64,000 nt of DNA from positions 1,736,001 through 1,800,000 of the forward strand of contig JAHBBC010000002.1 in the NCBI GenBank assembly GCA_019915015.1, written 5' to 3'. This document shows positions 22,175 through 59,964 of this stretch, one piece after another. The DNA comes from Auriscalpium vulgare. Lineage: Eukaryota > Basidiomycota > Agaricomycetes > Russulales > Auriscalpiaceae. Within the stretch, counting starts at the first letter, position 1. Every line of letters begins with the position of its first letter. Position numbers and translations under genes: made by a program. Under the pieces are notes generated by a model. The model was not told the DNA's origin and did no database searches. It saw only the letters and a program-made list of their open reading frames with translations.

Positions 22175-24410
22175 TCAAGCGATAGCGTTCACTGGCCGTG
22201 TATACCTTGGGATAAATATGTATATTTTGATCAGCAAAATACAGTGCAATAGGATGTTTAGAATCTGTAGGTGCAAATGTAATAAACCATGTTGGAGCCC
22301 CAATATAGCTCATAAGAGCCCAAAGTTCATTGCGCTTGTACTTGTTATTTGTTCGCGAGCCTTGTACATGCTGAGCTACATGGTCCAAATCATTGATAAT
22401 TGCAAAGCATTCCTTCTCTGCCTCTCCATTAGCAGTTTCAAATTCGCCATCTACCATTCGCTGAATCATATCATTTAGCACAGCTTCATTTACACCAAGT
22501 AGTCGCCTGGCAATATCTGGAAAGGTTGCCTTTTGAGTTAGCAAATACCCTCCAGTATTGCTTCTTTTGATTTGTTCATGATTGAATGCAATCAGTGGGA
22601 ACAAAGGCTCTAGTTGAAAGCGTTTGTCATGATACATCAACAGCGCCTGTTTTCGTGCACTTTCGCTAATTTTTGAGTACCCATTCTCATTTCCAATGCC
22701 GCCAAGACCATAAGGGAAGAGCCAGGGAAAGGCTTGTGGATACAGCTGAGGATTATTATATGTGCTCTCTGGTGTATCATTATGCCCTAGGCCGAGTGCA
22801 TATCCATTTTTTGAATTTATATACTGAAGTGCAAGGGCTTTTAACTGTGTGCCAGATTTCTTCTCCAGCTCAGCACCTGTCAGTGTATGCAGAATGAACG
22901 GACATTCTCCTTCTGCTGTACCTTCCTCATCTTCCACAGATTTATTTACTGCCTTGTCTTCAGAGTCTTTTTGTGATGGAGGGACTCGGTAGTCAATAAT
23001 AACTGGTGGCTCATCTTCAGAGTAGGTTGCAAGATTGTCATAAGAGATATCAAGGTCTGCATAGTCTGCATGGTTGACTTTGAGCCATTCAAGAGCAACA
23101 GCCACTTTGTTTCTGCGAACAAGAAATGGTGTTCTCCGATGCTCTCGAGTTGTAGGACGAGTGGGTCCAATATACACAAATGCCATCACATCATCCAGTT
23201 CATCTGCTCGAGGGGGCAAGACACTGTATATCCGTGGCATAGGCATTCCATACATTACTGCATTTGCAACCATTTTGTATTGACCAGAGGCCTGCACTTT
23301 GATGACACATCCATTTCGACATACTCTTGCAATAAGCATCTTTTCTGTAAATGACAAACCCTGCAACTGTGGTGGGACCTTCCCAATCCAATTGCCATTT
23401 GCTAATGCCTGGGAGGGAATCTTTCCTTTCTCCAATACATCCAAGCATGGTTTGCATATCTTTGAGCATGCATTATCAAGAATTGGTCCTTCTTCAACGA
23501 GAATTGGATCGTTAGGTGATTTGCGCTCCATTCGAGTCACAGGATATATACCCTTTGTATTCACAAGAAGACTGCGTTCAAAATCTGCTTCTTCCAAGGA
23601 AGTCATTGATTTGGACAGGGCCAATGTCCCACACACAGCACATCCTTCTTCTAGTAGGTTTTTTTTATTAATAGCATCACAATAATTAGTTGTAATCTTG
23701 TGTAGCAAAGCTTGGGAAGGGGGCTTTGGTGGAAAGACAGCTGTAGGAGCTGGCTGGACTTGCAGTTGCTTGGATGTCTGTATTCTTTTGATTTTGGGTT
23801 TATCAATTCCATTGAATTTGAAAAGTGTATTTGCATGCAAGCAAGCATCGCATGTATCAGAATGCAACATATGACTCTCCATTATATCATAGATTTTCAT
23901 TGTATTGTAACGCCATTGAATAGTTACATTATGTAAAGCACATATTTCAATCAATTCTGCCTTGCACAAACGAGTCAACTCAGCCAAAGGCATTTTGCAG
24001 ATTATCCACTGTGAGTCATCGTCACGATCCATAGGCAATGCCGATCCCATGTTTGCACCGTGACTACAAAATTCAAATTGCGATAACTGATGAAACTGAA
24101 TCGCAGATGTATCAACGCGATATCCCTGAAGCTCACTTAGCATCCACAGTGGTTTTTTCTTTCCACCCCCAATCAATGTGTAACTTGCGGGGTCTGGAAT
24201 CTTGGCTATATAACTAGGCAAAAATCCTACTATATATATGCATAAATAAACTAGAAAGACGGATATTATGATATTGTATCGCATGTTCTCAATGGGCCCT
24301 AGCCCTAGTAGTCCATTGACTTCAAAACACGCCCCAGCGGATGTCCTTTGACGGCAAAACAAAATAGCGAGTCTGTGCGTATCCCATAACAGTTGTGAAG
24401 GATGCCCCAT
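22113..24410 (-). CDS. Helitron Rep N-terminal part (separated by a one-base frameshift)
   Basis: The frame encodes a Cys-rich N-terminal part (MLHSDTCDACLH, CAVCGTL, CSKICKPC) and the Helitron-like N domain with ELWALMSYIGAPTWFITFAP and NNPVSGARFF. It overlaps the next frame by 62 nt. The reading passes from ARFF to NFMVETFIKVVLGV if one A of the AAA run at 22137-22139 is left out, so a single inserted base (or a base-calling error in a homopolymer) explains the split. Upstream of about 24200 the frame may include a short intron (GTATATATATAG...) and a hydrophobic stretch (IIISVFLVYLCIYIVGFL) that could be an artefact of reading through it. The ATG is not certain. Confidence 0.75.
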   Translation of the reverse strand: MGHPSQLLWDTHRLAILFCRQRTSAGACFEVNGLLGLGPIENMRYNIIISVFLVYLCIYIVGFLPSYIAKIPDPASYTLIGGGKKKPLWMLSELQGYRVDTSAIQFHQLSQFEFCSHGANMGSALPMDRDDDSQWIICKMPLAELTRLCKAELIEICALHNVTIQWRYNTMKIYDIMESHMLHSDTCDACLHANTLFKFNGIDKPKIKRIQTSKQLQVQPAPTAVFPPKPPSQALLHKITTNYCDAINKKNLLEEGCAVCGTLALSKSMTSLEEADFERSLLVNTKGIYPVTRMERKSPNDPILVEEGPILDNACSKICKPCLDVLEKGKIPSQALANGNWIGKVPPQLQGLSFTEKMLIARVCRNGCVIKVQASGQYKMVANAVMYGMPMPRIYSVLPPRADELDDVMAFVYIGPTRPTTREHRRTPFLVRRNKVAVALEWLKVNHADYADLDISYDNLATYSEDEPPVIIDYRVPPSQKDSEDKAVNKSVEDEEGTAEGECPFILHTLTGAELEKKSGTQLKALALQYINSKNGYALGLGHNDTPESTYNNPQLYPQAFPWLFPYGLGGIGNENGYSKISESARKQALLMYHDKRFQLEPLFPLIAFNHEQIKRSNTGGYLLTQKATFPDIARRLLGVNEAVLNDMIQRMVDGEFETANGEAEKECFAIINDLDHVAQHVQGSRTNNKYKRNELWALMSYIGAPTWFITFAPTDSKHPIALYFADQNIHIYPKVYTASERYRLIANNPVSGARFFKFYGGDIH

Positions 24411-24842
24411 GATGATGGTTCAGGTCAAAGAGCGAGCGGTGAAATTTTCACCTTTGATAAGCGACATGCGCATGTATTTCCTACGGTCACATGACCTAAC
24501 AGATTTTGCAGACGTTCCGCTTTGGTTACTTGATTTTGTCATATGCCTCTCTCCTGTTGCCTCCCTTCTTTACGATTGCCATAATTCCATTGCCATGAAC
24601 AGGAGCTCCTGCTCAATACGCCGCACAATGAAGTAATGGCTTCAACGATGCCCCAGATTTTAGCTGGCCACTTGCTACCGCTTCTGAGGTATCAAATCAT
24701 ATCATGCAAAGTTGCTCGTTCAAGATTGGACAATTGCGTAGATGAGTTTTATAATGCCCACAGAAGGCATATTGTGAAGTACACCACATGACAACCCAAC
24801 CAACAATGAATAGTACGCTTTTAAACAAGCATCGCCCGCTGT

Positions 24843-34579: not shown

Positions 34580-35083
34580 TATGTCTTGATCAATCTATTG
34601 GGTACAACGTACGTTGCGAAGAAGACCTTCATAAGCAAAGATAAGATAACGCAACTGACGGGGGAGCCCACCGGTGTGTCAATGGATACCGCTAGCAGGT
34701 AGCAAATACGAGGCTCCGTGGCACGGCGGCAGCGGCCCCACCAAGAAGAGTGTGATCGTGAGTAGTTCATCATGGGCTGCCCAATGGACTGAAAGTCCGC
34801 CGGAAAGAGTGTCTGAAAAGACACTCAACTGCACGTGAAATGCTAATGAGGAGTAAATAGGGTGTCAGGGTACAAGATATAGACACTTACTGATTGTTAA
34901 TACAGCGTTGCCGCGGAAGAGGAGGCCGTGTCAATGTATCGTAAATGGCGGCAGATGCTTGCGTCAGCCAACCCACCGTACCAGCATAAGTACTCACCTC
35001 GCGGATGGACGTTCCCTTCATTACAGATATGGAGACGTAGAATGGTACACATATGGCTACATATACGGACAACATACCGTATA

Positions 35084-37036
35084 CTACAAGTCGAGCAAGC
35101 GATACTGCGGGCCGTGTAATCGACTAATCTTGCAAAGGGTATGCTCTGCTGTTATTATGTCCCATCCCATATGTGACCGCTGCTCAGGTGTAAGTGCAGA
35201 TGAAACCAGCTCAAAGAAGGTACGGAACGCCCATTGAACATGTTGCACAGGTGGCTTGGCGGCCTGGAAGTCTGTGAACGCTGGGTCAACAAGCTCCAGC
35301 AGTTGAAGGCCAGAAAGTGCGCCCTTGGCGATGTGATGGATGACCCGCCCCATTTCATCGACGTCAGGCATGGCCACAATGCCAGTGTACACATAGTCCG
35401 CGGCAACCAGGTAACCAATAAGGTCGCCACATTGTGGATATGCCCGCCGCGCTCCTCCTGACGGTGACGGCTCCATCCGAATAACTTCACGGTAGAACTC
35501 CGAAAAGTTGATTGGATCGGTAGTGGGATCGGCCAAATGAAAATCGAAAGGAATGCCGGAGGATCCAGTGCGGTCCCAAAGCACTGAGACGTTCCTGAGC
35601 GGACGATTTGTGGCGCTTCCATATATCATAGCGTCAACAAAATATTTTGCGCCGAAGGATGCGACCATGAGTGCGTGGTCATTTGTGAGCTTGTCGGGTT
35701 GATCAAAGAAGATGGGGTGATCGAACATGTAGCCGCTGCCAAAGAGGATGGTCCGGAAGACCAATGCGCTGAAAAATCCTTTGCGTGTGCGCGCATGTTC
35801 TGGGGTGTAAGGACCATGCACTGTTCGCGCCCGTCGCACACCAGGTGCCTTCTCCCGGAATGGAAGCAATTTGTCCAGGTGTTTCCCAATCTCCTTCACA
35901 AGATTTCGGTCGCGTAAATCATTATCATGAGGAGCGCGCGCAAGGGAAGTGAAGCCTGAAGTCGGTGCATCAATCAGGTACTCCATCTTCTTCAATAGTT
36001 CCACAGCTCGCTCGACGTAAGGGAACATTTCAATTGTTGCCTCGATTGTGTTGATGTTGATACCAGATGGTGGTGGCGGTGGCTGCTGCGGATGCTGCGA
36101 AGGTGGTGGTGGTGGTGGCGGCGGCGGTTGCCCCGGGTTCCCACGGCGTAACCGGGGTCGAGCCGAGCTGGAGGCCGTTGTTGACGCAATAGCATTGCGA
36201 TTGCGTGATCGTCCCCCTGAACCTGAGGCCTCTGTTGGCGGTAGGGCGACAGGCGACCTGCCACCGCTGCTGAAAAACGCCTCCTGCTCCACGGAAAGTG
36301 AAGACGGCCCGTTGGCACCAGCAGCCCGAGTCATGTACGCAATCAAACGCATAGCAGCCGCTTCCTGAGAGTCAACCACCATCATTGGCAATGCAACCAT
36401 TTGTACCAAGAGAGGCATGAGGTTATGCGGTGTGAATGGGCGACTAGACGGACGGGCATTGATGATTTTTGGAAGTCCGTGCCAATACATGTGGAAAGCA
36501 GCGTTGAGGAAGAAGACATCCGCCGTGAAAAATTGACGCATGGCGGCAACAAGCCATGCCTGTGTGCGGCAGACTTTGATAGGCTGAGGGAAGCCGAGCC
36601 ACGTAGAAAGGACATCGACCATAATATTGTACACATGTCGCTGGTGCTTAAATCCACTGCTGTGAAGCGGGTCTGTATCGCGTCTTGGAATCTGGATGGT
36701 GTATACGCCGGCGGGAAAGCATGGGTGGTAGTCGCGGGGAGTGATCTCGGCAGTCTCCGTGCGCAGCGTGATGAGGGTTGAGATTTTGGTGGAAAGCATG
36801 GACAAACGGTCAGAGGATGGTGCAAACACAGCCTGCGCGTAGCGCAGGCAAAGCGACTCGAGCCAATTGCACAGCAGAGCATGATTCTCCATGATCAGGG
36901 CTTTCATATGGCGAAGGTCGAGGTCACCAGCCGCCTGCACGGCTAACAGCTGCTGCCACCCTTCCCAGGCGGGTGTGATTGCGCTGATTGTGTCTTCATG
37001 CGTCCAGTGTTTGGAGCTGAGTTCGTTGTGCGCGGC
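35084..37036 (-). pseudogene. Disrupted gene of unknown function, main (3') part
   Basis: The minus-strand frame is open from the transposon border at 37036 to the stop at 35084-35086, about 650 codons. It continues in frame from an 18-codon start on the far side of the element (ATG 42955), so the original protein had about 670 residues. Visible parts: a helical N-terminal half (HWTHEDTISAITPAWEGW, LLCNWLESLCLRYAQAVF), a Pro-rich run (PPPPPPPPP near 280), then a conserved-looking C-terminal domain with FFSALVFRTILFGSGYMFDHP, YGSATNRPLRNVSVLWDRTG and WAFRTFFELVSSALTPEQR. I recognise no family and no catalytic motif. Apart from the insertion it has no stops, so the break is young. Confidence 0.75.
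37028..37036. repeat. 9-bp target-site duplication, left copy
   Basis: GTGCGCGGC stands here and at 42893-42901. Because the element ends in TAG/CTA, the duplication can also be read as 7 bp with CTAGACTGG ends; 9 bp is the longest reading. Confidence 0.85.
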
Positions 37037-37110
37037 TAGACTGGGACATCTCGCGGTGGCGTGGCGGGGCCCTCCGCTAAGTGGAGCGATTTCATCGGGA
37101 AGTCATGTGA
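37037..37110. repeat. Left terminal inverted repeat
   Basis: It pairs with 42759-42892. The first 9 bases match the extreme right end. Bases 37040-37110 match the inner right repeat with a handful of changes and one 1-bp gap. Confidence 0.85.
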
Positions 37111-37220
37111 TGTCCGTTTAGGGAAGCGTCGCGTCGCGTCGCCCATGTCCGCGTTTCTGCTACCACCATCACTATACCCCGCTATGAGCTTTATACCCTC
37201 TAATAGCTCGCTATAATATT

Positions 37221-39463
37221 ATGGACTGTGATATGGACGATATACCCCCTCTTTCCGACATGTTTCTCCTTCGACTCGACGCTTTGTCTTCCACTGCGCG
37301 CGACACTGGCCTGCTCGCGTATGCCCTGGTGTACTCCTCGAGCAATGGCAAGATTGCACTACGAGAAGATCAAATATACGCGGCAGTCTGCTTTCATGAA
37401 GGCCGCGACACGCTCGTTGTCGCTCGTACGGGCTCCGGCAAGACCATGCAAATGATCATCGCTGCTCTCCTCAACCCCGGCCGAATTGTGCTCGTGTTCT
37501 CCCCGCTCAAGAGACTGCAGACATCAATGGTAAGCACACTCGCCACTGCACTTCTAGAAGCTGCTCACGATGCGATTTACCTCAGGCTGCAGAGCTTGAG
37601 CAATTCCGAGGTATCCATGCTGTCGCAGTGAACCAGGAGTGCCGCTACAATGCAGCAACGTGGGCGGTGCGTGGCCTTTCTGCTTCACCCTGTCCTTCCA
37701 TTAACATCTTTTGCTGGCACAGGACATCGAGCAAGGCGCATACAACATTGTACTCACGTCTCCGGAGCAAACTAAGCCCTTGGACGGTCACCCGACGCGA
37801 CTCTTTAAGCTCATCCAGTCGAATGCGCGCTTCGTGCGGCTCCTCGAGCGCATCATAGTCGACGAAGCTCACTTGACCTTTCACTGGGGCGCTGCTCTCA
37901 ATAACTCTGACGCCTTCCGTCCACTCTGGGGCTGTATCTGGACGCTACGACTGAGGCTTAAGCTATCGGTGCCAATCCTCGCGCTCACAGCCACTGCCCC
38001 GTCGCATATAATCGACTCTTGGAATCGCTCTCTCGCTCTGCGCGATCCTGTACTGCTGAAGTCAACAATCAACCGACCCAATCAGACGTACGCTGTCCAT
38101 CGGATCATCGGCAGCATGAGCGACTATCGCAATCTTGCGATGCTCATACCGAACGGCCTCGAGAAGAAAGGCTGCACCACTGCTGCGGCCTTGATCGAAA
38201 GCACGGACAAGACTGTCATCTTCATGGATGACGCCAACCTCATCGCCGCATCTCCTGCCGGGATGTATGCACTCATCCCTGCGTGGATTCGGGGGGATCT
38301 TATGGAGGCCGGTTTCATTCGGTTCTATCATGCCGGAATGTCCGCTGGGTACTTGGAGGAAACATACGAGGCTTTCGAGGCGGAGGATGGACCCTGTAAG
38401 ATACTCTTCGCCAGTAGTGCTTTCGCAACTGTAAGTTTGCGTTCTCCACCTCTTTATCTTCCGCTGACTCGTTATTCAAAGGGCCTCAACATCAAAGACA
38501 TCCGGCGGATCATCCAATATGGGCTCCCTCAATGGCTAGAAGAACTGCTCCAGCGCTACGGGCGCAATACACGCCTTCTCGAGCTCCTTGGACTGTCCCT
38601 GCTGATGCCCGAGCCCTGGGCGTGGACACCCTCAGCCAGACCGTCGGCAAAAGAAGGACGGACATCGCACGTTGTCAAGGCCTATGCGATGTGCAAGACA
38701 TGTCGGCGCGAATTCATCGCGACATACCTCGGCGACGATTCCGAAGATGGTTCGTGCCATGCCTGTCGTGTTCTGCACCGTGTCGCAGCTGACTCTGTTT
38801 CCAGCGTTGAAGTTCATAACCTCCAATTGCTGCGACAACCACCCAGAACGTCCGCTCGACTTGCAGAAGCACTTCCTTGGCACGGTCGTATATGATCTCC
38901 TACCCGCTGCGGTCAAGCAAGCACGAGCACCGGCCCCAAAATATCGGCCACCATACCAGCGTGCTCATCTTACGCAGGCTCTGAATGACTGGCTTCGCTC
39001 CCCGACGTGCCGATCTGCCACGCCTGGCGGGATTCCTGACTGCTTTGTCCTCTCGAGCACCACAATTGCTCGGCTCGTCCTCATACCTTATGACAATCTG
39101 CCGACAGCTGACGCCCTCATTCGCGCACTTGACGAGACCGACGAGTGGGGCAACCTCTACGCAGACGATCTATTCAATACGATACAACGGTTCGAGCTAA
39201 AGGCAAAGGTAGAGGGGTCGCAGTGGAACATCGCATACAAGGCGGAGATGCAGCTGAAGAAGGAAGAGAGGAAGAAGAAGAAGGACTATGTCGCGACGAA
39301 AGGGAAGGGGAAGGGGAAGGAGACGGGCAATGGCACAGAGGGTGCTGGCGAGTGCGAGGACGGTGAAGAGGTCAGCGACGAGAGACTTGACAATTTTCTG
39401 GAGGAGAGTCAGCAAGGACGGCCTCAGAAGCGTCCTTGTTACGCACCGGCTCGCTATTTTTGA
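37221..39463 (+). CDS. RecQ-like DEAH-box DNA helicase of the transposon
   Basis: The start is ATG 37221. Introns at 37530-37585, 37667-37722, 38431-38481 and 38750-38804 (all GT-AG, 50-60 nt) join the frames without stops. Motifs in order: ALREDQIYAAV (Q-like), VVARTGSGKTMQM (I), NIVLTSPEQ, IIVDEAHLTFHWG (II, DEAH), ILALTATA (III), KTVIFMDDANLI (IV), FASSAFAT-GLNIKDIR (V), LPQWLEELLQRYGRNTR (VI). A Cys pair CKTCRREFIATYLG and, after the last intron, NCCDNHP form a RecQ-like zinc site. A Lys-rich, acidic C-terminal part follows. SF2 RecQ enzymes unwind 3'-5'; here it probably opens or processes transposon DNA. It ends 18 bp before the stop of the convergent DUF6589-type gene, so the pair looks like a functional unit. 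Confidence 0.85.
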
Positions 39464-39481
39464 TCGAGCAAAATCCTGTTC

Positions 39482-42400
39482 CTAGCTGAACTCCACCTGC
39501 AAATCCACCGGAGGCATTTCATCCACCTCCGCTTCATGGACTCCATGCTCGAGCCAGGCTCGTCGGCGCTTGTGAAAGTCAGCGATGCGACCTTTACCTG
39601 GTGTGTCCAATAGCTTCACGCCGGCGTCCATGGCGTCGTTTATTTTGCCTGCCTTTCGACCCGGCATAATTTTCAGCAACTCCCATTCCGCTACCTTGTC
39701 CGCAATCGTGCGGACAATTTCCGAGGTATCGACATTGGTATGTGTAGTACCTTTGTACGGAACACCGAGGGCATCCCGGAAGACCTTCAGAAGCTGCCGC
39801 CAGACGTGCGCACCGGGGGAGATTGTTCGAAGTAAATCCCAGTCTGCATGAACTCCTCGAGCGGCGTACATTTGCTTGATGAAGTGAGAACAGTGCAATA
39901 TATTAACGATGCAGACTCACCTTGAGAGTATGGATTAAATGCTCAATGTTTTCATCAACACCAGTCCAGTGATCATCGCGGCCGCTCATATTAATGAGCA
40001 TGTTGTCGCGCATCACATTCCTACAACATGATTTTAGCTAGGACTCATGCAAGCCGGGACGCGGCTGAAAGACTCACGCAAAATTTGTCGGCCAGATGAA
40101 CTTGAGGTTCTGGATGAGATGCATGAACTCTGTGCAGTAGTTGCGTGCCCCCGCACCGCAAAACCAGATAGTGAATAAGCCTAACAGCGGCTCGACACGG
40201 CCCTCGAAGTCTCCTGACTTGATGGCACGGAAGAGGGTATAGAAATTCAAGAGGTCGCGGAAGAGAAGGGCTGTGTTGTAGCGCACCCCATCCTGTGTTT
40301 CGGCGTCGAGTGGGTCTGTTCTGGTGTTCTCTGGAGAGGGGGATGCATGGTAAATTCTGATCTTGTGCGCGATATCCATGAGCGTGCGTGCAGACGGCTT
40401 CGACGCAGCGAACTCAGCGAGAGTAGGAAAACCGCACTCAACCTTCCAAGCGTGGAGAATCAATCCAAATAAGACTTGATCTTCTGTAGCTTTCAGAGTG
40501 TGGTAGTCAGGATGAGCTGATCCGAGGCGTTTGCGATTGAGGAACTGGATAAACGACTCGAGGCTTCCAACATCGCGCCCGTTGCCGCGGTGAATGTTCA
40601 CGATGTACCACGACGAGTTGAGCAGAGTGTGAAACATGCCTATACCCAGCTGTGCGACTTGAACTCGGCTGAACGGGGTATTGTCGCCACGGCGACGGGC
40701 CTGAGCACCGCGGATATGTGAGTTTGTTGCCTGGTCGTTGATGCTGGGAATTGCGAAGCGGCCGAGTTTTGTGGTATCCATGCCGAAGTCATCCTCGTAC
40801 GTCTCCCGGAAGACCTCAATGTTCCCCTCAATGGTGGACTCAACGGTTGTAGATGTTGCGAGGGGGAACTGCTCCGTCTTGTAGCCAGCGGGAGGCAGCG
40901 CGCGCGATGATGCAGCGTGCTTCAGGAGCGGTGATGCTGCATAGTCGGCGGCAAGTAATGCAAAGTCGGGGGAGTATTTGAGCAAAATCTCAACAATGTG
41001 CTGTGCTTGGTGCTCGTGGATCGAAGCCTGCTGGGAGAACGAGGGACGGATGTGTCGACTGTACGTGATCTCCTCGCAGGAGCGGAGATTCTTGATGATG
41101 GGCTCGAGCAGGCAGGCTTCTTCGGTTGCATTCCTCAGCTTGTATAGTATCTTCGTTGTACCAGCTGCGACCCTCGGAGGGGCGTCGGGGCGCTGCTCGA
41201 CATGCTCCGTAGTCGATATTTGCATGTTATCGTAGCAAAACATGTGGAGGCCCTCTGCCACCTTGCGCGCGTGGACCATGCACTGCTCGGCGATCGCACG
41301 GCGACCAAGTTTGATTGAGGAATAGCTGATGGAAAGTCCAAGCTGTGCGCTGATCTCGATAGTCTGCTTCGGCGCACCAGCGGCCCATTGCGCAAGGCCG
41401 TGGACAATCGCAAAGAGCTGCGCGTTCTGAGAGTAGTGCTTCACGATTTGAGCAATGATGACTAGGACGATCTAAACGAATCGTCAGAAATAATTTCCAT
41501 CTTTCTCAGAGAGCACATACGCGATCGGGAGTCTTCTGTATGTTTGTCTGTTGCGCCCGATCTGACTGGAGCGCGCGTCGGAGAATGCGGCTCGTTGTTG
41601 GGGCATACTGCGCAACCTTGGGCTTGATAGTCTTCTCCAAGGAGAATCCGAGAAGGAACTCGGGCGTTGCGTTCTCTTGCTTGAAGAGGAACTGATGTGC
41701 GAGGGTGTCGATCTCGTTGGCGACGGTGTCCTCGACCATGTCGACTGCCTTCGTTGACATCCACGCTCGCAGCTGCGCCCGGCCATCCGGATGATCCCAA
41801 AATGTGTCAAGAAGGTCTGACATCGTCTCGCCTTCCTTCTGGTTTTTGTAGAAGCCCGATGCGTGAGCCTGAACTGCGGCTGACGCCGACGGGCTGAACA
41901 GAACACTGAGGAAGCGTCCGGTACCGCCCTTGCGTGAAATGTCACGGAAGTCATCCAGACAGCGTCGGACACGCTCGTCTGGGGAAGATCGCGGGCCACG
42001 GGAAACCTTGGGCTCAGCGGGAGCAGTGGAGGTGAACAGGATGTCTTCTTGGAAAGCAGGGGGAGTCTCTGGGATGAGAGCTGCTACACCTTCTGGGTGC
42101 AGCGGAATATCGATGTCGACAGGCGACAAGAGAGCCTCTACCAGTAGGCGACGCTGAGAGCGATGCGGAGGAGGCGTTGGAAGGTAGTCAGAAACTGGGG
42201 AGTCCTGGGTGGACAGCGCGGGCAGAGATGTCCGATCCGAGTCGCCCCAATGTAAATGAGAAGATGCCCGTGGCATAGTGGAGCGGGAAGGGGCTGAGAC
42301 AGCGCGAGAGCGCTCGTGCAGATGGGATGGAAATGGCTGTCTGCGATTGTAGGGTTCTGGGGAGAAGCTGGAGTCGGAGTCGAAAGGAAAAGACAGTGAT

Positions 42401-42663
42401 CCGCTCGCAGGAACGTCCGAAGAATTGTGTACCAATGCCGAGGGCAGTGTCAGAGGTGCAGTAGATGCCTGTCCCGCAGAATTATGGCGAGCTCCTTCCT
42501 GTGGACCCCACCAAGTGTATGCTCGCCCTCGTTGAACATTTTCTGTTGGCTGAAAGGTGTCGTCGGCTTGTGTCAACTGAGAGAAGAAGGAGCTTCCCGG
42601 AGGTCGGGAGGTCGGAAGTGAAGGAAAGCGGTTCATTGCATTATCAGAGGGGTCTTTAGACAT
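39482..42663 (-). CDS. DUF6589-type protein, candidate transposase
   Basis: The ATG at 42663 (MSKDPSDNAMNRFP) opens a long first exon with a Ser/Pro-rich, disordered N-terminal part and a helical region from about residue 240 (DERVRRCLDDFRDISRKGG). Introns at 41472-41520, 40021-40077 and 39875-39920 splice in phase. The central domain shows MFCYDNMQIST, SYSSIKLGRRA, IHEHQAQHI, TTVESTIEGNIEVFRETY, SINDQATNSHIRGAQ and GIGMFHTLLN. That pattern (YDN, stretch with STIEGN, DQ with following R residues, FH) is how I know the fungal DUF6589 family. The C-terminal part has CGAGARNYCTEFMHLI and GRDDHWTGVDENIEHLI. The acidic residues of YDN, NDQ and TEF could form a D-D-E site of an RNase H-like fold; that is inference only. 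Confidence 0.7.
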
Positions 42664-42758
42664 GATGTACAAGGAATGATGAACGAGACTCGGAGGAGAG
42701 CTGTTGAAAAAGGTTGCACAAACGCGTCGCGCTCGACTTCCAAGCCGTCGCCCGCATG

Positions 42759-42892
42759 TCACATGACTTCCCGATGAAATCTACTCCACTTAGCGGAAGC
42801 CCCCGCCACGCCACCCCGAGATATCCCAGTCTTTTACTGACAGTACCTGCCTGCCTCGTCACTGGCTCAGTAAAAGCCTGGTCACCAGTCTA
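42759..42892. repeat. Right terminal inverted repeat with extra hairpin
   Basis: Bases 42759-42832 pair with the left repeat. The outer 42833-42884 segment is absent at the left end. It holds CCAGTCTTTTACTGA ... TCAGTAAAAGCCTGG, a 15-bp stem with one mismatch. The last 8 bases again match the left terminus. Confidence 0.8.
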
Positions 42893-42955
42893 GTGCGCGG
42901 CGGTTAATCGAGATGCAGCCTGGCGCACGGTGATGTGAACTGATGGGGAATCCAT
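42893..42955 (-). pseudogene. 5' end of the disrupted gene (start codon side)
   Basis: ATG at 42955-42953 begins MDSPSVHITVRQAASRLT, then reaches the target duplication (AAH). The next codons lie 5.9 kb away at 37027 (NELSSKHWTHED). Counting bases confirms that the frame is continuous when the element and one duplication are left out. The 9-bp copy at 42893-42901 is included here. Confidence 0.75.
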
Positions 42956-43275
42956 GGAACGGAAAGTGGTTGCAACAGAAGAAGCCTCCTGGAACAGACT
43001 CGCAAATGAAAATGATGTTGAGCCTGGGGAGAAAGTCAGTGAGATGCATGCCACACTTTACAGGACGATAGCGGCACGTACCTGCGGTAATTTGAACGAG
43101 AGGTGTTTCCAAGACTTCATCTCGAGTAATGTTCAATGGGTTTGCCAAAGGTTGGACCATCCCAGTGACCGCCAGTGTCAACCCAGCGTCTTGCGCAATA
43201 GCTGTTGTTGACAGACTGGAGGCTAACAAGGAAACAAGGTCGGTGTGATTTTGTGGCGAATCTTTGATGGTTATC

Positions 43276-44226
43276 TTAGATATGCAAAGAAGCAACAGCA
43301 GCACGGAACGCACCACGGTCTTTATCAGCGTTGCCCTGCGAGTAGCGAGCCACATGCATGTGATCTTCGCCAGTTGTCTGCTTATCTTGTGCTTCAGCCC
43401 CTCGCTTGCGCTTTCGAGGAGACACAAAGAGTGTTGTACTGGTCGCCATGCTAGCCTTCGCCATTGCCGTCTCCAATTTTGACATATCCGTGGACTTCAA
43501 TACACTGTTGGAGACGCGGGTCGAAGAGTCTGTGAAAGAACAAGGCAATAAGTCCTTCAAGAATTCACACGGACACGAAAGACACTCACTGGTAGGCACG
43601 CTCACAACAGGGGAGGCATCTGTGACATCATCATCGACAGGGTCCGCTGATTTCATGGTCCCTGTGAAAACATGAGTATCTAACGAGGCGCAGAAAAAGT
43701 CGGCCGACATACTCGAGTTGAACACATGTGTCGCGGGCCGGCCGCCAGTGCGTTCACATACAGGACTTGCCTCGGTTGCAATAAGCAATGTCTTCATTCG
43801 CGCGCCGTCTTGATGGCAGAATGGAATGAATAAACGGCACCTAGCGTTGTAGGCTTTGCATATTGCCGAGGCGTCACGACGCACGATAGCACGAGAATGT
43901 GATGGATCTACATGATAAGCTTCAACAGTAGGGAAAAGAAAATATACACTCACTATTGAGAATCGGAGCAAGAGACCATGGACGAGCTTCATACACTTCA
44001 TCGTCACCAACGTCCACTGAGAATGCAGATAATAGCTTGTCCGGGTCAATGTGAGCCTATAAGATAAAATATCAGACAACATTCGGACTAGAGAACACTC
44101 GCCGCATTACCGTGATATCCAGGGGCACCTGCGCAAATATATAAACACTCAAGAGGTACATGCTGCGGGCCATAAAGTCCGTAAGCTCCTTCTTGCCCAT
44201 GATAACCGGCCCGTCGGAAGCGAAAG
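43276..44226 (-). CDS. Multi-exon gene fragment, unknown function
   Basis: Minus-strand exons can be joined by GT-AG introns: GKKELTDFMARSMYLLSVYIFAQ and DITV; AHIDPDKLLSAFSVDVGDDE with ARPWSLAPIL; PSHSRAIVRRDASAICKAYN to ATHVFNS; TMKSADPVDDDVTDASPVV; then STRVSNSVLKSTDMSKLETAMA and the Lys/Arg-rich PRKRKRGAEAQDKQ, ending SLHI at 43276. No ATG opens the first exon, and the Harbinger element stands 125 bp upstream. The gene may have lost its start to that insertion: the frame stays open when the element is left out. I recognise no family. The basic end suggests a nuclear protein. Confidence 0.4.
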
Positions 44227-44352
44227 TTACGATTCCCTTGAATCGTTTCTTATGTAAGCACCAGTCGCAGTTTTTGGACCCATGCAACTTTCATCTTCCC
44301 CCCCATATATAGGTATTTGTTCACACGGTCCAATTTCCCTAGCCAACACAAT

Positions 44353-44420
44353 AGGGGAGCTCAGAGTAGACCGTTTTCGTTTCCGTTTCGTTTTCAAACG
44401 CCTTTCGTTTTCGATTCGGC
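44353..44420. repeat. Harbinger left TIR (68 bp)
   Basis: It is a perfect reverse complement of 47673-47740 up to GATTCGGC, after which the two sides diverge. It is pyrimidine-rich, with repeated TTTTCGTTT. Confidence 0.95.
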
Positions 44421-44505
44421 GCCCCGGCGTGATATTACATAATGTCACTCAATCTACGCCGCTGCGCGACACCGCCGCCATTGCTTTCGAGCTCTTCCAC
44501 CAGCC

Positions 44506-45829
44506 ATGGCCCGTGCTACCTACCACGATGAGATTATCGACGCATACATCACATATATGGCTATCCAGATGGCACTCATGCCTCCATCTTCAGCCACAGC
44601 TATGATGGAGCAGCTCCAACGCGATAGCTCAATCCTTCACACCATCCTATCCTCCCGCTACATCAACCCCCGTCCTCCCGTCGTTAAAGCCGGCAATCTC
44701 CAGCTTGCATGGGAGTATGCACAGGATCCTGCCCATCACCACCGCTTTATCAACATGCTCCGTGTCTCTCCCCACGTCTTCGACACTATCCTTGGCCTCA
44801 TCGAGGGTCATCCCGTATTCCAGAACAACTCGAACACCCCGCAGGAGGATATCCGAACGCAATTAGCGGTGACCCTGTACCGTATGGGTCGCTATGGCAA
44901 TGGCGCATCTCTCGAGGATATCAGCCGTGCAGCGGGCTGTTCAGAGGGCGCTGTGGAGCTATACACGGAGAGATGTCAGGAGGCGCTGATGTCCTTGCAT
45001 GGGATGTTTGTACGGCCGCTAACAGAGGAGGAGAAAGAGGTCGAGAAAAGGTGGATTGATGAGCAGCTTGGTTTCACGGGATCCACCTGGAGGGAGGGAT
45101 GGGTGATGTACGACGGGACAATTGTTGTCCTGTACAGTCGCCCCGGCCTCGACGGTGACGCGTACTACACAAGGAAGTGCAACTATGGGTTCAACGTCCA
45201 GGTATGCTGGATATCTTCTAATAGCTCCTGACTGACATATCTGTACACAGATTGGCAATACACCGTCGAATCTACGAATCGTTGACTATTCGCTTGGCAT
45301 GACCGGTTCTGCTCATGATGCATCTGCATTTGAGCATACTGCAGCTGTCAAGCATACCGACTGGTTCTTCAGAGGTGACGAGTTTGCATGGGGTGACTCT
45401 GCGTACCCTGTCAGCTCGCGGACCATCCCAGTTCACAAGAAACCAGCGTCGTTAGACCGCTCAAATGCCTTATTCGACAAACACGTAGCTCGCCTACGCG
45501 TTCGCTCTGAACACACCATGGGTGCACTCAAGGGCCGATGGCAATCCCTTCGTGGCTTACGGCTCAATATCCGTTACAATCGGGACCATATACGAGCGTG
45601 TCGGTGGATTTCATGTTGCATCATCTTGCACAACGCAGTGCTCGACATCGAAGGATGGGCGAGTGGGACAAGCTTTGCGACTTGGCACTCACGTGCTCAG
45701 GAAGAGGACGATAGGGGGGAGCCAGATGATCCTATAGATGATGATATCACAGAGGATGATGATTGCGAGGCTAGGAGACGTGGCCTTGTGGCAGAAATAG
45801 TAGCCGCTCAACGAGCAGGACTTGTATAA
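44506..45829 (+). CDS. PIF/Harbinger DDE nuclease (transposase)
   Basis: The ATG at 44506 fits; a 49-nt intron (45202-45250) joins NYGFNVQ to IGNTPSNLRIVDYS, giving about 425 residues, the usual size of the family. The N-terminal half has a helix-turn-helix-like stretch (LAVTLYRMGRYGNGASLEDISRAAG, read in two parts, then CSEGAVELYTERC). The DDE domain shows VMYDGTIVVL (first D), GSAHDASAFEHT (second D), WGDSAYP and VRSEHTMGALKGRW (E). The C-terminus is acidic (DDDITEDDDCE). It cuts and joins transposon ends in the nucleus, with help of the partner protein encoded convergently behind it. No damage was seen. Confidence 0.9.
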
Positions 45830-45944
45830 ATGAACAAGATTAAATCTGAGATTGTAAAGAGTAAGAGAGATATAATCAGAAAGAAGAAAGGACTGTGTAG
45901 CATTAAATGAGAGGCTGCAGTTAGAAAGGACAAAAGCAAAATGA

Positions 45945-47541
45945 TCAGACTAAGCCTCGCTCCAACTCGTCTGGAACCACAGATGATCCTCGTCCAAGAT
46001 CTCTGTCCAACTGGCTCTCATCCCAGGGAGGACTATTTTCTCTCTGGCTTGTCATCTCGCTCTCGGGCTCATCATCCGGAGGTGTCGATGCGCGCGGCAG
46101 AGATGAAGGCGTCGATGCAGCGGTTGACATAGAGCCCGTGCGTGAGATGGAACGAGCGGGCGTAGCGGCGGCGACAACCAGAGGAGGATTCTGAAGGCGC
46201 GATATATTTTCACGGAGATCTTGAAGCTGCAGCTGAAGGTCATCGTCAAGTGCTTCCGACTTGCGGCGATACTCATCGTTCGTCCACAAGCCAATCTGCA
46301 GCTCACGAAAGAGGCGGTCGTGGCGATCGCGAGCGTCTTGGCGAAGACTATTCATGTCATCGCGCAGCCTGTCGACAGCTTTGCGGATGTTCTCTTCCTT
46401 TGACACCGCAAAGCTACGCCTGCCACATGAATTAGTCCACGTGCATTACCAACAACTAGTATTACTTACTCGATGGACTCCTTCAGTATGTCTTGAATGC
46501 CGGTGCGTGACGTGGGCTTGAAGCGACCCTTCAAGCTCTCCAGCTTCTCTTCCGACAGGTGTGCGGGAGTCTTCTTCGCACTTGCTTGCGACGAGGGCGG
46601 CACGCGGTTCTCTTTGGGAGTGTGTGGCGTCTGCGGTGGCGATCCCGGGCCGGGTGCGGTCGCAGAAGAGTCTTGCGCGAGAGGCGCCGGGCCATCGTGA
46701 ACGCGTAGGACGGGGTCTATGTCCTCTTCGCGCGGTTGCCGCACAGGTGGCGCGTCGTCGGGAGGCTGATAGTGCACTGTGCGGTGACCGTCCGGACCAA
46801 CCCCAGTCGTGATGATGATCGGGTTTTCATTTGGGCGGGTGGCAAGGATCGCGTGAATTCGGGGGAAGACAGCGAACTCGGCCTCGATCTCCTCTGCACA
46901 GGATGTGTTAGCCTCCAGCGTGCTCATCGGAGATCACAAAATGAACTTACGCCAGATATTCTTGTGGCGTGCATCGGTATCCTCGGATGGGCCATCTGGC
47001 CCTATGTAGCAGACCAAATACTCATCTGGACCATCGTCGGCATCACCTGTGTCGACGATGGCCTCATTCCCAGTGAGGACACCTCCACCCGTGCACTTAA
47101 TGCGCCGAACCTTGGAGTGATAGGTGATGCGTAGCCTACACAAGCCTGTGAGCACGTATGAGGCATCCAATAAGGGTATGGACATACTGATTTATTTTCC
47201 CGAGCACCTTTGCTCCCAGACTGACGAAATCCGAGTCCGGAGCATCCTTCCAGAGGATGCGAGCAAGCCGCTGACCCGCTGCGACCTTACTTTCTCCGCT
47301 TTTCTTCTGGAAAGATGTCAGTAACAAAGCCCAGATGATGCGTGGGCCACCTGCATACCTCACCACGCTTGTTACCAAACATAACCTTGCGATTTTGCGG
47401 CTGTTCGAGCTCCGTGATGAGCTGCAGGAGCAGCTCATTTGGCTTCTTATTTGTGCCCCAGCTGATGTTCTCCTCACGGGATTTCTTGCCCGGAGCTGTC
47501 TCAGGCTGGTCGGAGTCCGAGCGGCCGCGTTTCCGGGGCAT
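45945..47541 (-). CDS. Harbinger-associated DNA-binding partner protein
   Basis: ATG 47541 opens MPRKRGRSDSDQPE, a basic start followed by ISWGTNKKPNELLLQLITEL, which looks like the first helices of a Myb/SANT-like domain. Introns with GTATGC/CCAG, GTATGT/ACAG, GTAAGTTC/GCAG and one near 46411-46466 lead through RLARILWKDAPDSDF, FGNKRGE and DGPSEDTDARHKNIW. A Pro-rich part follows, then a coiled-coil-like end (ENIRKAVDRLRDDMNSLRQD, LQLQLQDLRENISRLQN) and the stop at 45945. PIF/Harbinger elements need such a second protein for nuclear import and end binding. The Myb assignment is by position and pattern, not by a clear W-x-W-x-W series. Confidence 0.7.
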
Positions 47542-47672
47542 TAAGAGAGTAGGAGAGTGTAGATTAAGGAGGTATCGCGAGGGAATGAGTGTGTGAGACA
47601 CGAAGACGCCGCACAACGCGAGCGTCACCTAAAGTCACACGATTGTCACACATCGGGTCACTTATGCCGCGG

Positions 47673-47740
47673 GCCGAATCGAAAACGAAAGGCGTTTGAA
47701 AACGAAACGGAAACGAAAACGGTCTACTCTGAGCTCCCCT
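47673..47740. repeat. Harbinger right TIR (68 bp)
   Basis: It is the perfect mate of 44353-44420 and ends CTCCCCT before AAT. Confidence 0.95.
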
Positions 47741-48007
47741 AATTCCCCCTCTTCGCACTTCAAAAGACTCCCATTTCAGACAGTATTTCGCATTTTGTAA
47801 GCTAACTAGAATAGATATGCACATAATTTCAGTGGCTCTGAACTCAGAAGAAAATGCTCCATAATTGCCATTTCCGGTAAATAATTCCCACGCTCGATCC
47901 CATGACGTCAGTCTCGGATGCACAGCACAAGTGCACTCGGAAACTACGTCATTCCTCTCTACTCCGGCTACTGTACTACCCGGACTCGATTACCAATCTT
48001 TCCAAAA

Positions 48008-48092
48008 CTGTTTATAACAGGAATTGAACTGCAAACCTCCAAGTTTTGAAGACTATACAGTGCAGATACCACTAGACTACAGAGCCATTGAC
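48008..48092 (-). ncRNA. tRNA-like sequence, probable SINE head or tRNA relic
   Basis: The minus strand has TAGTCTAGTGG (48079-48069), a perfect pol III box A, and AGTTCAATTCC (48030-48020), close to box B, at a tRNA-like distance of about 40 nt. Acceptor and anticodon stems do not pair well, so it is not a functional tRNA. A second box-B-like AGTTCAATTTC stands at 48260-48250 without box A. The rest of 47741-48880 contains no gene I can support. Confidence 0.4.
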
Positions 48093-48265
48093 AATATATA
48101 CATCAATACATATGTTATAGACTATTCCTGTAGGCTTTTCAAAGCATCTAAGTCTGTCACCTCCCCATTCGTGCATCCAAAAATCATGTCATGTCTGAGC
48201 TCTAGCCAAAGTACTACGGGGAGTGAAATACATATAAGTGTTTCTATCAGAAATTGAACTGCAGA

Positions 48266-48340
48266 CCATGCCCCTGATCAATATCTGGCGGCCTGCGCAA
48301 GCTTGCGAGCGAGGCCGGCCAGGTATTGATCGGGGCATGG
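48266..48340. repeat. 75-bp near-perfect palindrome
   Basis: The arms CCATGCCCCTGATCAATATC and GGTATTGATCGGGGCATGG, each continued towards the centre CGCAAGCTTGCG (48296-48307), would fold into one long hairpin. It may be a tiny foldback element or the remnant of an inverted duplication. Confidence 0.7.
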
Positions 48341-49016
48341 TTGAGTCCATGTTTCACGGAGCAATGCACAATGTTGCTGAGCAAGTTCATGCACAGCGAC
48401 GATGGGCACCCACATGTAGTACAGTGGTAATGTGTCAGATAGTACCAGATCCCTTGAGCGCTGGAGAGGGTACTGCGATGTGTGCAAGTGAGTGTCAGGC
48501 TCCCGAAGATGATCGGAGTGCGTCTCCGATGAGAGTAGGGAGGCGCGCGATCAGAGGTGTTGGTTGGAATGCGTGATCAGTCAGAGAATCATCAACGAGG
48601 GGTTGGAGGAGAGGATGTGTATTGCAAGCGACTGGGAACGACTGCACACTGCACTGTGTGTACGATCATTGAATTATGGTTGGAACAACAGAGAGGAGTG
48701 CAGACAACAACACTGAACCATTGGTGTGAATGTTGACTTGTCAAAAGTGCGAAAATTGGTGAATGATCGCCTCGCAGCGCAGAGCGAAGAGTATCAGGGC
48801 TACCCATGATGCCACAGATTGAACTTTAGATATGACTGAGACAGGTCAATCTTTCACTTGCATATCACTACCTTCAACATCATTCACTATTCTCAGTACA
48901 TGCAGACTCTCTACTGCATTTCAAAATCACATCAAGTAGAGGTTGTAGCCGCAGCAAATGGATACTAACATTAACTACATAATGATATTTACAAACCATT
49001 AGAAATGGAATCGTAC

Positions 49017-50988
49017 CTGCCGTGCTTAGCACCGGCCCACTACCAGCAAGTTGCATGTGTTGACCATCCACGCCGATTGCGATCTTCCGGGCTTACAAGC
49101 ATTAAACAGTCAGCTAAAGGAGTTGACCAAAGCGATAGAGAACATACTTATTCTTAACCGCTGGATCAAGCGTCAACATACCATGTGTTCGCGTAGCCTC
49201 TCCCTCGTCAGGTGCATTTGAGCGCAGCGTAGCCAGAGCGGTTATTCCCTGGTTTTCAAGAACAACACTTGGAGGATAGCACACCACCACGAGGCGGTAC
49301 GCCCAATCCGGGACGGCCTGTCCAGCAGGAGCGCACGGTGGTGTTCCACCATGCCGCCGCAGACCGTTGAAGTACGCCACCTGTAACCCTTCCAAGCGCA
49401 CAAACAGACCTGCCTCGACCAGATGAAATGTGCCCGACTCGAACTCCTCTGGAATTTCTGGACAAGCAACCATGCCAGTCAAACCAGACACGGAGTCGCC
49501 GCCATCATAATGCGGCCCACCATATTTAGCCAGCTCTTTGATACAACTTGTGTCTATGAATATATTGAGTAACAAGCTACGCCAACACATCGCTAAAGTG
49601 AACAAACCAGAATCAGCTGGTTGAGCAGGCGACACGTTCACTTGAGTAGTGCCAAAGAATTTGTTGGTCTCAACGCCAATCGCCGGGGCATTGACGAGCT
49701 CCGCTTGTAACACCATGACGTCTCGATGGGACTTGGGCAGGAAGTCGTAGCCACATACAGCCACATCGATTGCAGCCTGACAATATTGTTAGCTAAATAC
49801 ACAGGTATTTGATAGCTCCACACACCTTTTCTATCTCCTGACGTATGCGAAGGCCATCAGTCATGCCCAATTCTTCAGAGCCCTTGTTGCCCGCAGACGG
49901 CGCGAGAAGTTGAGTTGGTTTCTCATAACTAAGTCCGATGTTATAGCATCGGGCATCGCTAACGGGAAGCGCATTGCCGGAACGCTCGAATGCCGTTCCA
50001 CCCTCGTACACCCCAGTCTCCGCGTTGAGTGCAGGCTTTGATAGAGTGCGCTCGGCCTGAGGTCCAAGGACGTGTTGCCTGGCAGCATAGAAGGCGTCGC
50101 ACACGATGTCTCCGTTAGGTGTGGCCCGCAAGAGACCCCTATTAATACATCAGCACCAATATTGAACAACAATATAAGGCACGTACTCATCGACGAGCAC
50201 GCCTTGCACAAGATCTTCACATCCGCAAAGGCATCCTGTCAGGGCGCGCGCAAAGACTGCGTCACCTGGCTCCAGCTTGAAGACTCCTATAGGACGATAA
50301 GAACCCAAGAACTGAACATAGATAATAAACAGACTCACCCGCATCGCCATCCCACGCACGACTATTGACCATTGGAACTGGAAGATCCTTCGTTTTCACC
50401 CACGTAGCCTTCAGACCCGCTTCGGAGGTGTCTTGATAATATACAAAGGAGCGGCCGACCATGCCCCTTGCCGATCCCATTCGAGGATCTTCACGCAGCG
50501 GATGTAGTCCTTCAACACGATATAGTACAGGCAGAACGGCATTTCGGTCGGGCATGACCAAAGCCACCATAGAGAGAGCACTGTGAGGCATGGGTCGGGT
50601 AGAAGATGCAGTGTTGGACGGAGAGTGCTCGGCAGACATGATGGTCAAGAGCAAGTTGTCGACGCTGAACAACACGCCCTTGGCCCTATCTGAGCAGTCT
50701 GCATAGCATGACAGATGAAGATAAGATAACCAGATGATAACAACCGATGATGTCACAGCACGAGGCATCAAATAACCCGCATGCGCACTCACAGGAGCCG
50801 GTGCTCAGTGACGACTTGTTTCCGCTATACTTGACATGAATACACGCAACGCCCGCCATCGGATCCTGACGTCCGCTTGGTGACGAGACGAAGCGGGAGT
50901 TTGGCGGTCCACCTCCAACTGCGCAGGCGCAGCACCTTCCTCTGGACGTCTGTGCGACCTCTTCACCCGCCTGACGCCGCACTTCCAA
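49017..50988 (-). CDS. TET/JBP-type 2-oxoglutarate/Fe(II) dioxygenase
   Basis: Several exons join by short GT-AG introns (for instance 49554-49607). The catalytic exon reads KYGGPHYDGGD (the H-x-D iron ligands), FNGLRRHGGTPP (distal His) and YRLVVVCYPPS (Arg for 2-oxoglutarate), the signature I associate with fungal TET/JBP proteins. Upstream exons give CSDRAKGVLFSVDNLLL, MVALVMPDRNAVLPVL, VKLEPGDAVFARALTGCLCG-like and GTAFERSGNALPVSDARC segments, and a possible Cys-rich start (SRGRCCACAVGGG). The enzymes oxidise 5-methylcytosine in DNA. The last exon is uncertain: IAIGVDGQHMQLAGSGPVL looks coding but does not join in phase. In basidiomycetes these genes have expanded together with transposons (Iyer and colleagues); no KDZ transposase is visible beside this one. 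Confidence 0.7.
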
Positions 50989-55920: not shown

Positions 55921-56479
55921 AATGGAAGAGGAGGGCTGCCCAGGTCAGCTTGGCTGCTCTAGCCTGGGGCGCCGTGAGAAGACCACACCGCTTTGTCTCT
56001 TCGCTATCGTCACAGTCGCTCTCCTCCGTCCTCATCCGCCGCGGCAGCCATCGCTCCATCGTCTACAGAGTGCTGCCCTGCTTTGCCTTGGTTACGAGAC
56101 ACGGTTGCGGTCAGATTTGGCTGACACAACGTGTGCAACCTTGAGGCCATCTCCACGCAGAATGCAGCAAGATCTGTTCTGGCCTGGGTCCGCCTACCAC
56201 CTCACAAGCCTCGCTAGTCCGAGCCTTACCCTCATACCACGGCTAGGAATACCTGTATGAACACAACCTGTTCCCGCTAATCGACCCACCTCACAGGTAG
56301 AACGTATCCTCCGGTTACCCGGGTGCTTCAGTGCCGACGCGTGCCTGAATTCCAGAGAACGATGACGCACAAAACCGGATCAAAAAACGAAAACCAGTCA
56401 GAAGCTACGTCATTGTTCTCTGCAATTGAGCACATACCTTCAGTCCTTCGAGTATCGACCGCGGCCGCGTGTGAGTACG

Positions 56480-57900
56480 TAATGCGTCTGCGTGGGTGTG
56501 TGTGCATGGGTGCCATGCATGTGCGTCGGTGTCATGCCCATGCATGAGCGTCGGGTGTTGTGCACGGGCGTGGGGGGCGTCGTGGGCGTCGTGTGCGGGC
56601 GCGGGTGTGGTTCGCGGGTGTCGGGCTTGTGCTCGGACGTTGTGGGCGGGCGTCGTCGCTCTGGCGTGTGGGCAGGCGCAGTGCGCAGGCATGGGCATCG
56701 TGCGCGGACGTGGGAGTCGTGCGCGAGCGCGGTGGGCGTGGGCGTGCGTGGGCGCAGGCGTCGTGCACAGGTACGGGCGTCGCGGGCGTGCGCGGGCGCG
56801 GGCGTCGTGCGCGGTGGGTGTACGTGGGCGCGGTGGGCGTGGGCGTGCGCGGGCGCAGGCGTCGTGCACAGGTACGGGCGTCGTGGGCGTGCGCGGGCGC
56901 GGGCGTCGTGCGCGGTGGGTGTACGTGGGCGCGGTGGGCGTGGGCGTGCGCGGGCGCAGGCGTCGTGCACAGGTACGGGCGTTGTGGGCGTGCGCGGGCG
57001 CGGGCGTCGTGCGCGGTGGGTGTACGTGGGCGCGGTGGGCGTGCGCGTGCGCGGGCGCAGGCGTCGTGCGCGGTGGGTGTACGTGGGCGCGGTGGGCGTG
57101 CGCGTGCGCGGGCGCAGGCGTCGTGCACAGGTACGGGCGTCGTGGGCGTGCGCGGGCGCGGGCGTCGTGCGCGGTGGGTGTACGTGGGCGCGGTGGGCGT
57201 GGGCGTGCGCGGGCGCAGGCGTCGTGCACAGGTACGGGCGTCGTGGGCGTGCGCGGGCGCGGGCGTCGTGCGCGGTGGGTGTACGTGGGCGCGGTGGGCG
57301 TGGGCGTGCGCGTGCGCAGGCGTCGTGCACAGGTACGGGCGTTGTGGGCGTGCGCGGGCGCGGGCGTCTTGCGCGGTGGGTGTACGTGGGCGCGGTGGGC
57401 GTGGGCGTGCGCGGGCGCAGGCGTCGTGCGCGGTGGGTGTACGTGGGCGCGGTGGGCGTGCGCGTGCGCGGGCGCAGGCGTCGTGCACAGGTACGGGCGT
57501 CGTGGGCGTGCGCGGGCGCGGGCGTCGTGCGCGGTGGGTGTACGTGGGCGCGGTGGGCGTGGGCGTGCGCGGGCGCAGGCGTCGTGCACAGGTACGGGCG
57601 TTGTGGGCGTGCGCGGGCGCGGGCGTCGTGCGCGGTGGGTGTACGTGGGCGCGGTGGGCGTGCGCGGGCGCGGTGGGTGTGTGCGGGCGCAGGCGTCGTG
57701 CATCGGCAGCGAGGGTTGTGCGTGGGCACGGGTGTTGTGGGCGTGCGCGGGTGCGTGCGTTGTCGCCCTGGCGTGTGGGCGGGCGCAGTGCGCGGGCATG
57801 GGCTTGGTGCGCGGGCGTGGGAGTCGGGCGCGGGCGTCGTCGCGGGCGTCGAACGCTGGTGTGCGTGTGGGTGTTGTGTGCGGGCATGGGCGTTGAGCAC
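56480..57900. repeat. G-rich minisatellite, ~100-bp composite units (unit 1)
   Basis: Units made of GCGGTGGGTGTACGTGGGCG, CGGTGGGCGTGGGCGTGCGC and GGCGCAGGCGTCGTGCACAG repeat about every 100 bp, sometimes shortened to about 57 bp. The plus strand is strongly G-rich over C. Each full unit contains GGG-N7-GGG-N6-GGG-N3-GGG. All six frames are open for lack of T/A-rich stops, so the open frames mean nothing. The array lies between a splice donor (GAAG/GTGAGC near 58040, minus) and coding-like sequence near 56450, so it may be an expanded intron. Confidence 0.85.
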
Positions 57901-58039
57901 GGGCACAGGCTTGGGTGGCATGGGGTTTTATACTTATCTTGCAGGAGTGGGGTGTCGAGGAGGGAAGGGAACGCGATGTCGGGGGGCAAGGAAAGGGTAT
58001 GCGGTGCCCGATTTTGCGGCGTAGCCCCATGGAAATAGC

Positions 58040-58345
58040 AGGCTCACCTTCATCCACTGTAACACAGCGCACCCACATACGGCTTCCCATCCCACACCCA
58101 CTCATAACATCTCCGATCGACTTGAGAACGAGCTGAACGAGGCGTGTCAAATCACCATCTGAGAGACGGAGATTTACAACACCCCGCGCCACACGGGATG
58201 TCTGAAAGACATCCCAAGTATTGGCAGCAGCTGGGAGCCGGCGCCATGTTCTTGAGGGCGAGGAAACGGACCAGGAGCCGGAAGGAGTGGTGGGTGAGGA
58301 GGCCAGGTGCGTTCAGACCAAAGAGAAGTGTGCTGACATAATGGA
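58040..58345 (-). CDS. Exon of duplicated unknown gene, unit 1
   Basis: The minus strand gives LRLSDGDLTRLVQLVLKSIG and then GCGMGSRMWVRCVTVDEG before a GTGAGC donor. It parallels the unit-2 exon VARGVVNLRLSDGDLTCLVQL. Conservation of frame and donor between two diverged copies suggests a real gene. The upstream part (LLTHHSFRLLVRFLALKNM) is less certain. I know no family. Confidence 0.4.
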
Positions 58346-59840: not shown

Positions 59841-59964
59841 TCATGCCCTGTCTTACTTGTCTTGAAGGAGTGGGGGTGTCGAGGAGGGAAGGGAACGCGA
59901 TGTCGGGGGGCAAGGAAAGGGTATGCGGTGCCCGATTTTGCGGCATAGCCCCATAGAAAGAGCG

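Follow-up and report, generated by a model that had tools for sequence, protein, structure and literature searches.

Introduction

AcademH, reportedly described by Kojima in 2020, is a lineage of Academ DNA transposons. Target duplications of other groups are TTAA in KolobokH and 8 bp in hAT and P elements. Here we analyse an element that carries a RecQ-like DNA helicase gene and a gene for a DUF6589 (PF20231) protein, found in a 64,000-nucleotide stretch of the basidiomycete Auriscalpium vulgare (contig JAHBBC010000002.1, positions 1,736,001 to 1,800,000; hereafter the window). In the available passages of the literature, AcademH makes duplications of 9 or 10 bp and AcademX of 3 or 4 bp, a difference tied to the helicase of the former and the nuclease of the latter, whilst relatives of MULE duplicate 4 to 10 bp (PMC10045372). 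AcademH is described as low-copy in Basidiomycota, Ascomycota and Mucoromycota (PMC10799480), and Academ had already been noted to include a RecQ helicase (PMC3627910). The Academ passages of five further papers hold nothing on the terminal structure or transposase of AcademH (PMC12730594, PMC8290104, PMC12210899, PMC9970103, PMC10294476). A second RecQ-bearing lineage, KolobokH, is reported only from fungi; its helicase coding region follows downstream of the domain for the transposase, and it has a C/DxxH signature (PMC9587614).

Our results indicate that the element is very probably an AcademH-type DNA transposon, a likeness drawn from lineage descriptions; it sits within a different multi-copy repeat of the fungus and appears to have kept both genes intact. 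The assignment rests on the RecQ-like helicase, the 9-bp duplication and the occurrence in Basidiomycota, all of which match printed Academ and AcademH features.

Results

Borders of the element and its empty sites

The element is a mobile unit with exact ends and a 9-bp target duplication (Table 1). The GTGCGCGGC pair is perfect, abuts the element on both sides and does not occur again on either strand of the window. The element begins with TAGACTGG and ends with CCAGTCTA. Its inverted repeats (37038-37109 against 42760-42832) are identical at 67 of 72 aligned bases with one 1-base gap, the right repeat being set 60 bp inside the end because of an extra hairpin segment there. Excision of the element together with one copy of the duplication gives a 702-aa open frame spanning the join. 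A reading made earlier from the sequence alone (the sequence-only reading) had placed the borders by these repeats, the duplication and the restored host frame, and all three are upheld.

Further proof came from the genome (51.6 Mb, 96 contigs searched), in which the left flank has three other copies (contigs C10, C24 and C24), all lacking the element. Over 1200 bp aligned without gaps, the empty copies were 98.5, 98.3 and 98.2% identical to the joined flanks, and a 39-base junction was letter-identical in all three, each with one GTGCGCGGC. The empty sites thus fix both ends and the 9-bp duplication independently of the frame, and are the stronger proof of the borders. The host sequence, at window positions 34937-37036, 42893-44228 and 49048-49225, is thus repetitive in its own right. 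Its three other copies are 96.7-100% identical per aligned piece. It carries the 702-aa frame, the two pieces of which had no Pfam match.

Table 1. Coordinates of the element and its parts in the window
Feature	Position	Strand	Details
Whole element, TAGAC...GTCTA	37037..42892		5,856 bp; basis: duplication, excision frame, empty sites
Left copy of 9-bp target duplication	37028..37036		GTGCGCGGC; single copy at junction of 3 empty sites
Right copy of 9-bp target duplication	42893..42901		GTGCGCGGC
Left terminal inverted repeat	37037..37109	+	without hairpin segment
Right terminal inverted repeat	42760..42832	-	inner part, common with left end
Right-end terminal hairpin	42826..42881		arms 42826-42840 and 42867-42881; 14/15 positions complementary
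RecQ-like DNA helicase gene	37221..39463	+	674 aa; 5 exons: 37221-37529, 37586-37666, 37723-38430, 38482-38749, 38805-39463
DUF6589 (PF20231) gene, putative DDE transposase	39482..42663	-	1009 aa; 4 exons: 42663-41521, 41471-40078, 40020-39921, 39874-39482
D462 codon, candidate catalytic aspartate (YDN)	41229..41231	-
D627 codon, candidate catalytic aspartate (NDQ)	40734..40736	-
E829 codon, candidate catalytic glutamate (RNYCTE)	40128..40130	-

A RecQ-like helicase and a candidate DDE transposase

As the sequence-only reading had it, the element holds two intact, convergent genes. Their reading frames are open, with exon borders predicted by reading GT...AG junctions. The spliced helicase matched DEAD (3.1e-16) and Helicase_C (1.5e-11) in Pfam, its RecQ zinc-binding match fell under its cut-off (E 0.001), and its closest solved relatives were WRN (6.4e-22) followed by RecQ helicases. 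Helicase motifs were placed by string search under their usual names. No XPG nuclease was found in a Pfam scan covering the six open frames of the two genes and the spliced helicase, with overlapping other frames outside the scan.

The DUF6589 domain was matched by the main exon of the second gene (7.8e-64) and by another exon (6.5e-07). In an alignment of 21 DUF6589 sequences the second of three acidic residues is conserved in 21/21 and the last, a glutamate, in 20/21; the first aspartate is present in all 17 sequences that reach its column. We infer a catalytic role for the D, D and E. The best solved matches of the predicted structure were Hermes, P element, Tn5, Transib and RAG1, with only 7-9% identity to Hermes and the P element in structural alignments. 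The order of strands and helices and 37/37 top structure-comparison rows agree with an RNase H-like fold, which is likely as modelled, but a Foldseek search with the predicted structure gave weak matches, none of them below E 0.001. The DUF6589 profile found one weak unrelated match among the sequences of solved structures. The sequence-only reading had seen no known transposase motif in the element, a statement now revised by the conserved D, D, E and by structural matches to DDE transposases. Taken together, conservation and modelling indicate that the DUF6589 protein is likely a DDE transposase that mobilises the element.

Nine relatives were found for the window protein, all in mushroom-forming fungi, the four best being from Dentipellis, Auriscalpium (two) and Gloeopeniophorella. 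None of 65 pattern matches was confirmed as a relative in viral contigs. The DUF6589 family is abundant and without an assigned function: in one search 289 proteins scored over threshold (7,999 candidates scored), and no functional name occurs among the 120 listed. A literature search found no paper naming DUF6589, and PF20231 only in an unrelated optics paper. Under those names the transposase role thus seems unpublished in the literature searched, and the identification of DUF6589 as a transposase is possibly new.

Recurrence of the gene pair

The Pfam DUF6589 model matched 43 stretches of the genome, grouped into 25 clusters. One exon of the window's helicase gave 23 matches and a diverged helicase of locus L045 gave 35, which were merged into 29 helicase places. 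Of the 25 clusters, 12 have a related helicase no more than 5 kb away; under random placement a mean of 0.29 clusters had one within 10.5 kb. Gene order is convergent at some loci, among them the window, C35, C51 and C7, and divergent at others (C14, C49, C6 and C20). C14 and C49 are near-identical and not independent.

Eight loci selected for closeness of the two genes (the window, L042-L045 and L057-L059) were analysed end to end. TAG[AG]C ends and a 9-bp duplication were present in seven, the duplications being GTGCGCGGC, GCTCCCATC, GGCTGGCGC, GTCGAGACC, GGTATCTTC, GGAATCTGC/GGAATTTGC and CGGTAAAGT. Six of the seven begin with G and end with C, indicating a symmetric target preference. A 7-bp duplication with C...G ends would fit six of the seven sites but is ruled out by the CGGTAAAGT of L059. 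At L057, a candidate duplication with one mismatch and 4/14 terminal matches was dismissed as chance. The sequence-only reading had proposed to find further copies through the terminal repeat, with 7-9 bp duplications. In this genome the left 264 bp matched only the element's own two ends (a lower-bound search). The recurrence of the pair with like ends and duplications bears out its proposal that the DUF6589 protein, with a RecQ-like partner, is the likely mobiliser.

The helicase might still be a passenger, with DUF6589 alone moving the element and the helicase serving repair or other functions. Consistent with this, a helicase is missing from the 5 kb around 13 of the 25 clusters and gene order varies by lineage. 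However, several of the unpaired clusters match only part of the domain, neither frame is interrupted in the window, and the pairing persists across diverged lineages (the window and C14 helicases are 28-29% identical). We consider a passenger helicase unlikely.

Some related loci had features of their own. One divergent-type element is present twice, in L045 and at C49:95579-103141, with 100% identity among the four 348-349-bp ends; the C49 copy may be the other haplotype or a duplication. The flanks of the L044 element gave repeated partial matches only and no empty site, and 20 bases of its left terminus also occur at C1:801067, C14:983909 and C57:88326. Within L042, a palindromic stretch at 4832-6757 (617-nt arms, 93% complementary) is probably a nested insertion.

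Predicted hairpins near the termini

The seven elements have 14 ends, 12 of which carry an inverted repeat close inside the terminus. The best ungapped stem begins 8 to 16 bases in at 10 of these 12 ends. L043 right and L044 left are the exceptions, with a stem from 23-24 and, on folding, an additional outer stem that begins at base 12. In the folds of L043 left and L044 right, the terminus itself is base-paired. In 60 single-base shuffles no equal stem arose for 11 of the 12 ends, and one did for L042 right. By DNA folding, L044 left and all four L058/L059 ends lay below every interior window of their own element. Few interior windows folded as low for L045 (2/180, either end), L043 right (6/134) and the right end of the window element (8/137), whilst folding was unexceptional at L043 left (23/134), L044 right (37/135) and L042 right (59/183).

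Across all loci collected, 51 distinct motif sites were scanned for a hairpin in the end register and 14 had one; in reversed sequences it was 1 of 41. Twelve of the 14 are ends already counted and two are both ends of the relic L050. This relic (L050 1501-1582; C1:2696991) is an 82-bp sequence with two TAGACTCGT termini around one hairpin and no 9-bp duplication.

No such hairpin is present at two ends, the left ones of the window element and L042. By eye, these ends look like deletions between AGACTGG repeats, one in the terminus and one in the inner arm of the hairpin. The idea that 42833-42892 at the right end is a nested insertion was rejected on this resemblance and on the recurrence of the hairpin near the terminus at other ends. 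The stems vary in sequence between lineages yet stay paired, suggesting that the hairpin has been kept across lineages. Covariation over nine end pairs showed compensatory double changes in 9 cases, but 26 pairs were broken and 18 had gaps, so these counts are not taken as proof. A hairpin near the terminus is possibly a new feature.

Neighbouring features of the window

The host repeat carries a second insertion at 44229-49047, absent from 3/3 other copies, which resume at 49048. It is flanked by AAGTT on both sides (a 5-bp overlap). Its open reading frame at 44443-45231 presumably resembles a PIF/Harbinger transposase; Pfam gave no match. Elsewhere, Helitron-like proteins (Helitron_like_N with DUF6570, PIF1 helicase) lie at 16988-24419 on the minus strand, and fragments of retrotransposon polyprotein, with domains of the reverse-transcriptase RNase H and integrase zinc-binding types, at 2679-5837 and 13372-15804. 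At 56405-60094 both strands hold many long frames that overlap, suggesting repetitive or biased sequence.

Discussion

The features shared with AcademH as described in the available passages are an encoded helicase, here RecQ-like and of superfamily II, a duplication of 9 bp where AcademH has 9-10 bp, and a place in Basidiomycota. The window element is also low-copy, lacks an XPG nuclease in the scanned frames and has a conserved D, D, E. If the assignment is right, it shares a superfamily with AcademX, from which it differs in its 9-bp duplication and in having no nuclease domain in those frames, where AcademX is described with a nuclease and 3 or 4 bp. The sequence-only reading had known of no described superfamily with this gene pair, which is probably wrong given how these partial descriptions of AcademH fit.

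The DUF6589 transposases could instead form a superfamily of their own, unrelated to Academ, with the RecQ-like helicase and 9-bp duplication arising convergently. RecQ helicases do occur outside Academ, in KolobokH (PMC9587614), and kinship to Academ transposases was judged from descriptions. The DUF6589 alignment has no conserved C/DxxH or CxxC, motifs marking several other superfamilies, and at any column between the second D and the E a C/DxxH occurs in at most 1/21 sequences. Three features nevertheless match the Academ and AcademH descriptions, and we consider a separate superfamily improbable.

That Pfam missed the transposase of a MULE, hAT or P-type element is less probable again. The range given for MULE relatives includes 9 bp (passage of PMC10045372), and the solved chains closest to the predicted DUF6589 structure are those of Hermes, a hAT transposase, and the Drosophila P element. 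Against this stand the low structural identity to both, the lack of a sequence match and the absence of any MULE, hAT or P match to the element's frames in Pfam up to E 1. Moreover, the 9-bp duplication departs from the 8 bp of hAT and P elements.

A KolobokH element, although it too would be a RecQ-bearing DNA transposon of fungi, is hardly credible, as the duplications here are 9 bp and of varied sequence rather than TTAA, C/DxxH is not conserved in DUF6589, and the helicase is a separate gene on the opposite strand instead of lying downstream of the transposase domain as described.

For the AcademH-type element, we infer that the DUF6589 protein cuts and joins as a DDE transposase. It would recognise the element ends, cut at TAGAC and join the ends to target strands 9 bp apart, favouring G-N7-C targets (6/7). 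The RecQ-like helicase might assist, perhaps in repairing the gap or by unwinding or remodelling the ends that form hairpins, and its action on those ends is the more speculative part. On a further reading, less likely than not, the ends would be structured, each with a tail of some 10 bases (TAG[AG]C...) that leads into the hairpin-forming inverted repeat, and the transposase or helicase would recognise or unwind the extruded hairpin. Helicase, hairpin ends and 9-bp stagger would then be one mechanism, unlike that of nuclease-bearing Academ elements.

The terminal hairpins offer a concrete, testable reason for a DNA transposon to carry its own RecQ-like helicase. If DUF6589 is shown to be a transposase, the genes bearing this domain would be reclassified, repeat-masking would be helped, and some stray fungal helicase genes may be explained.
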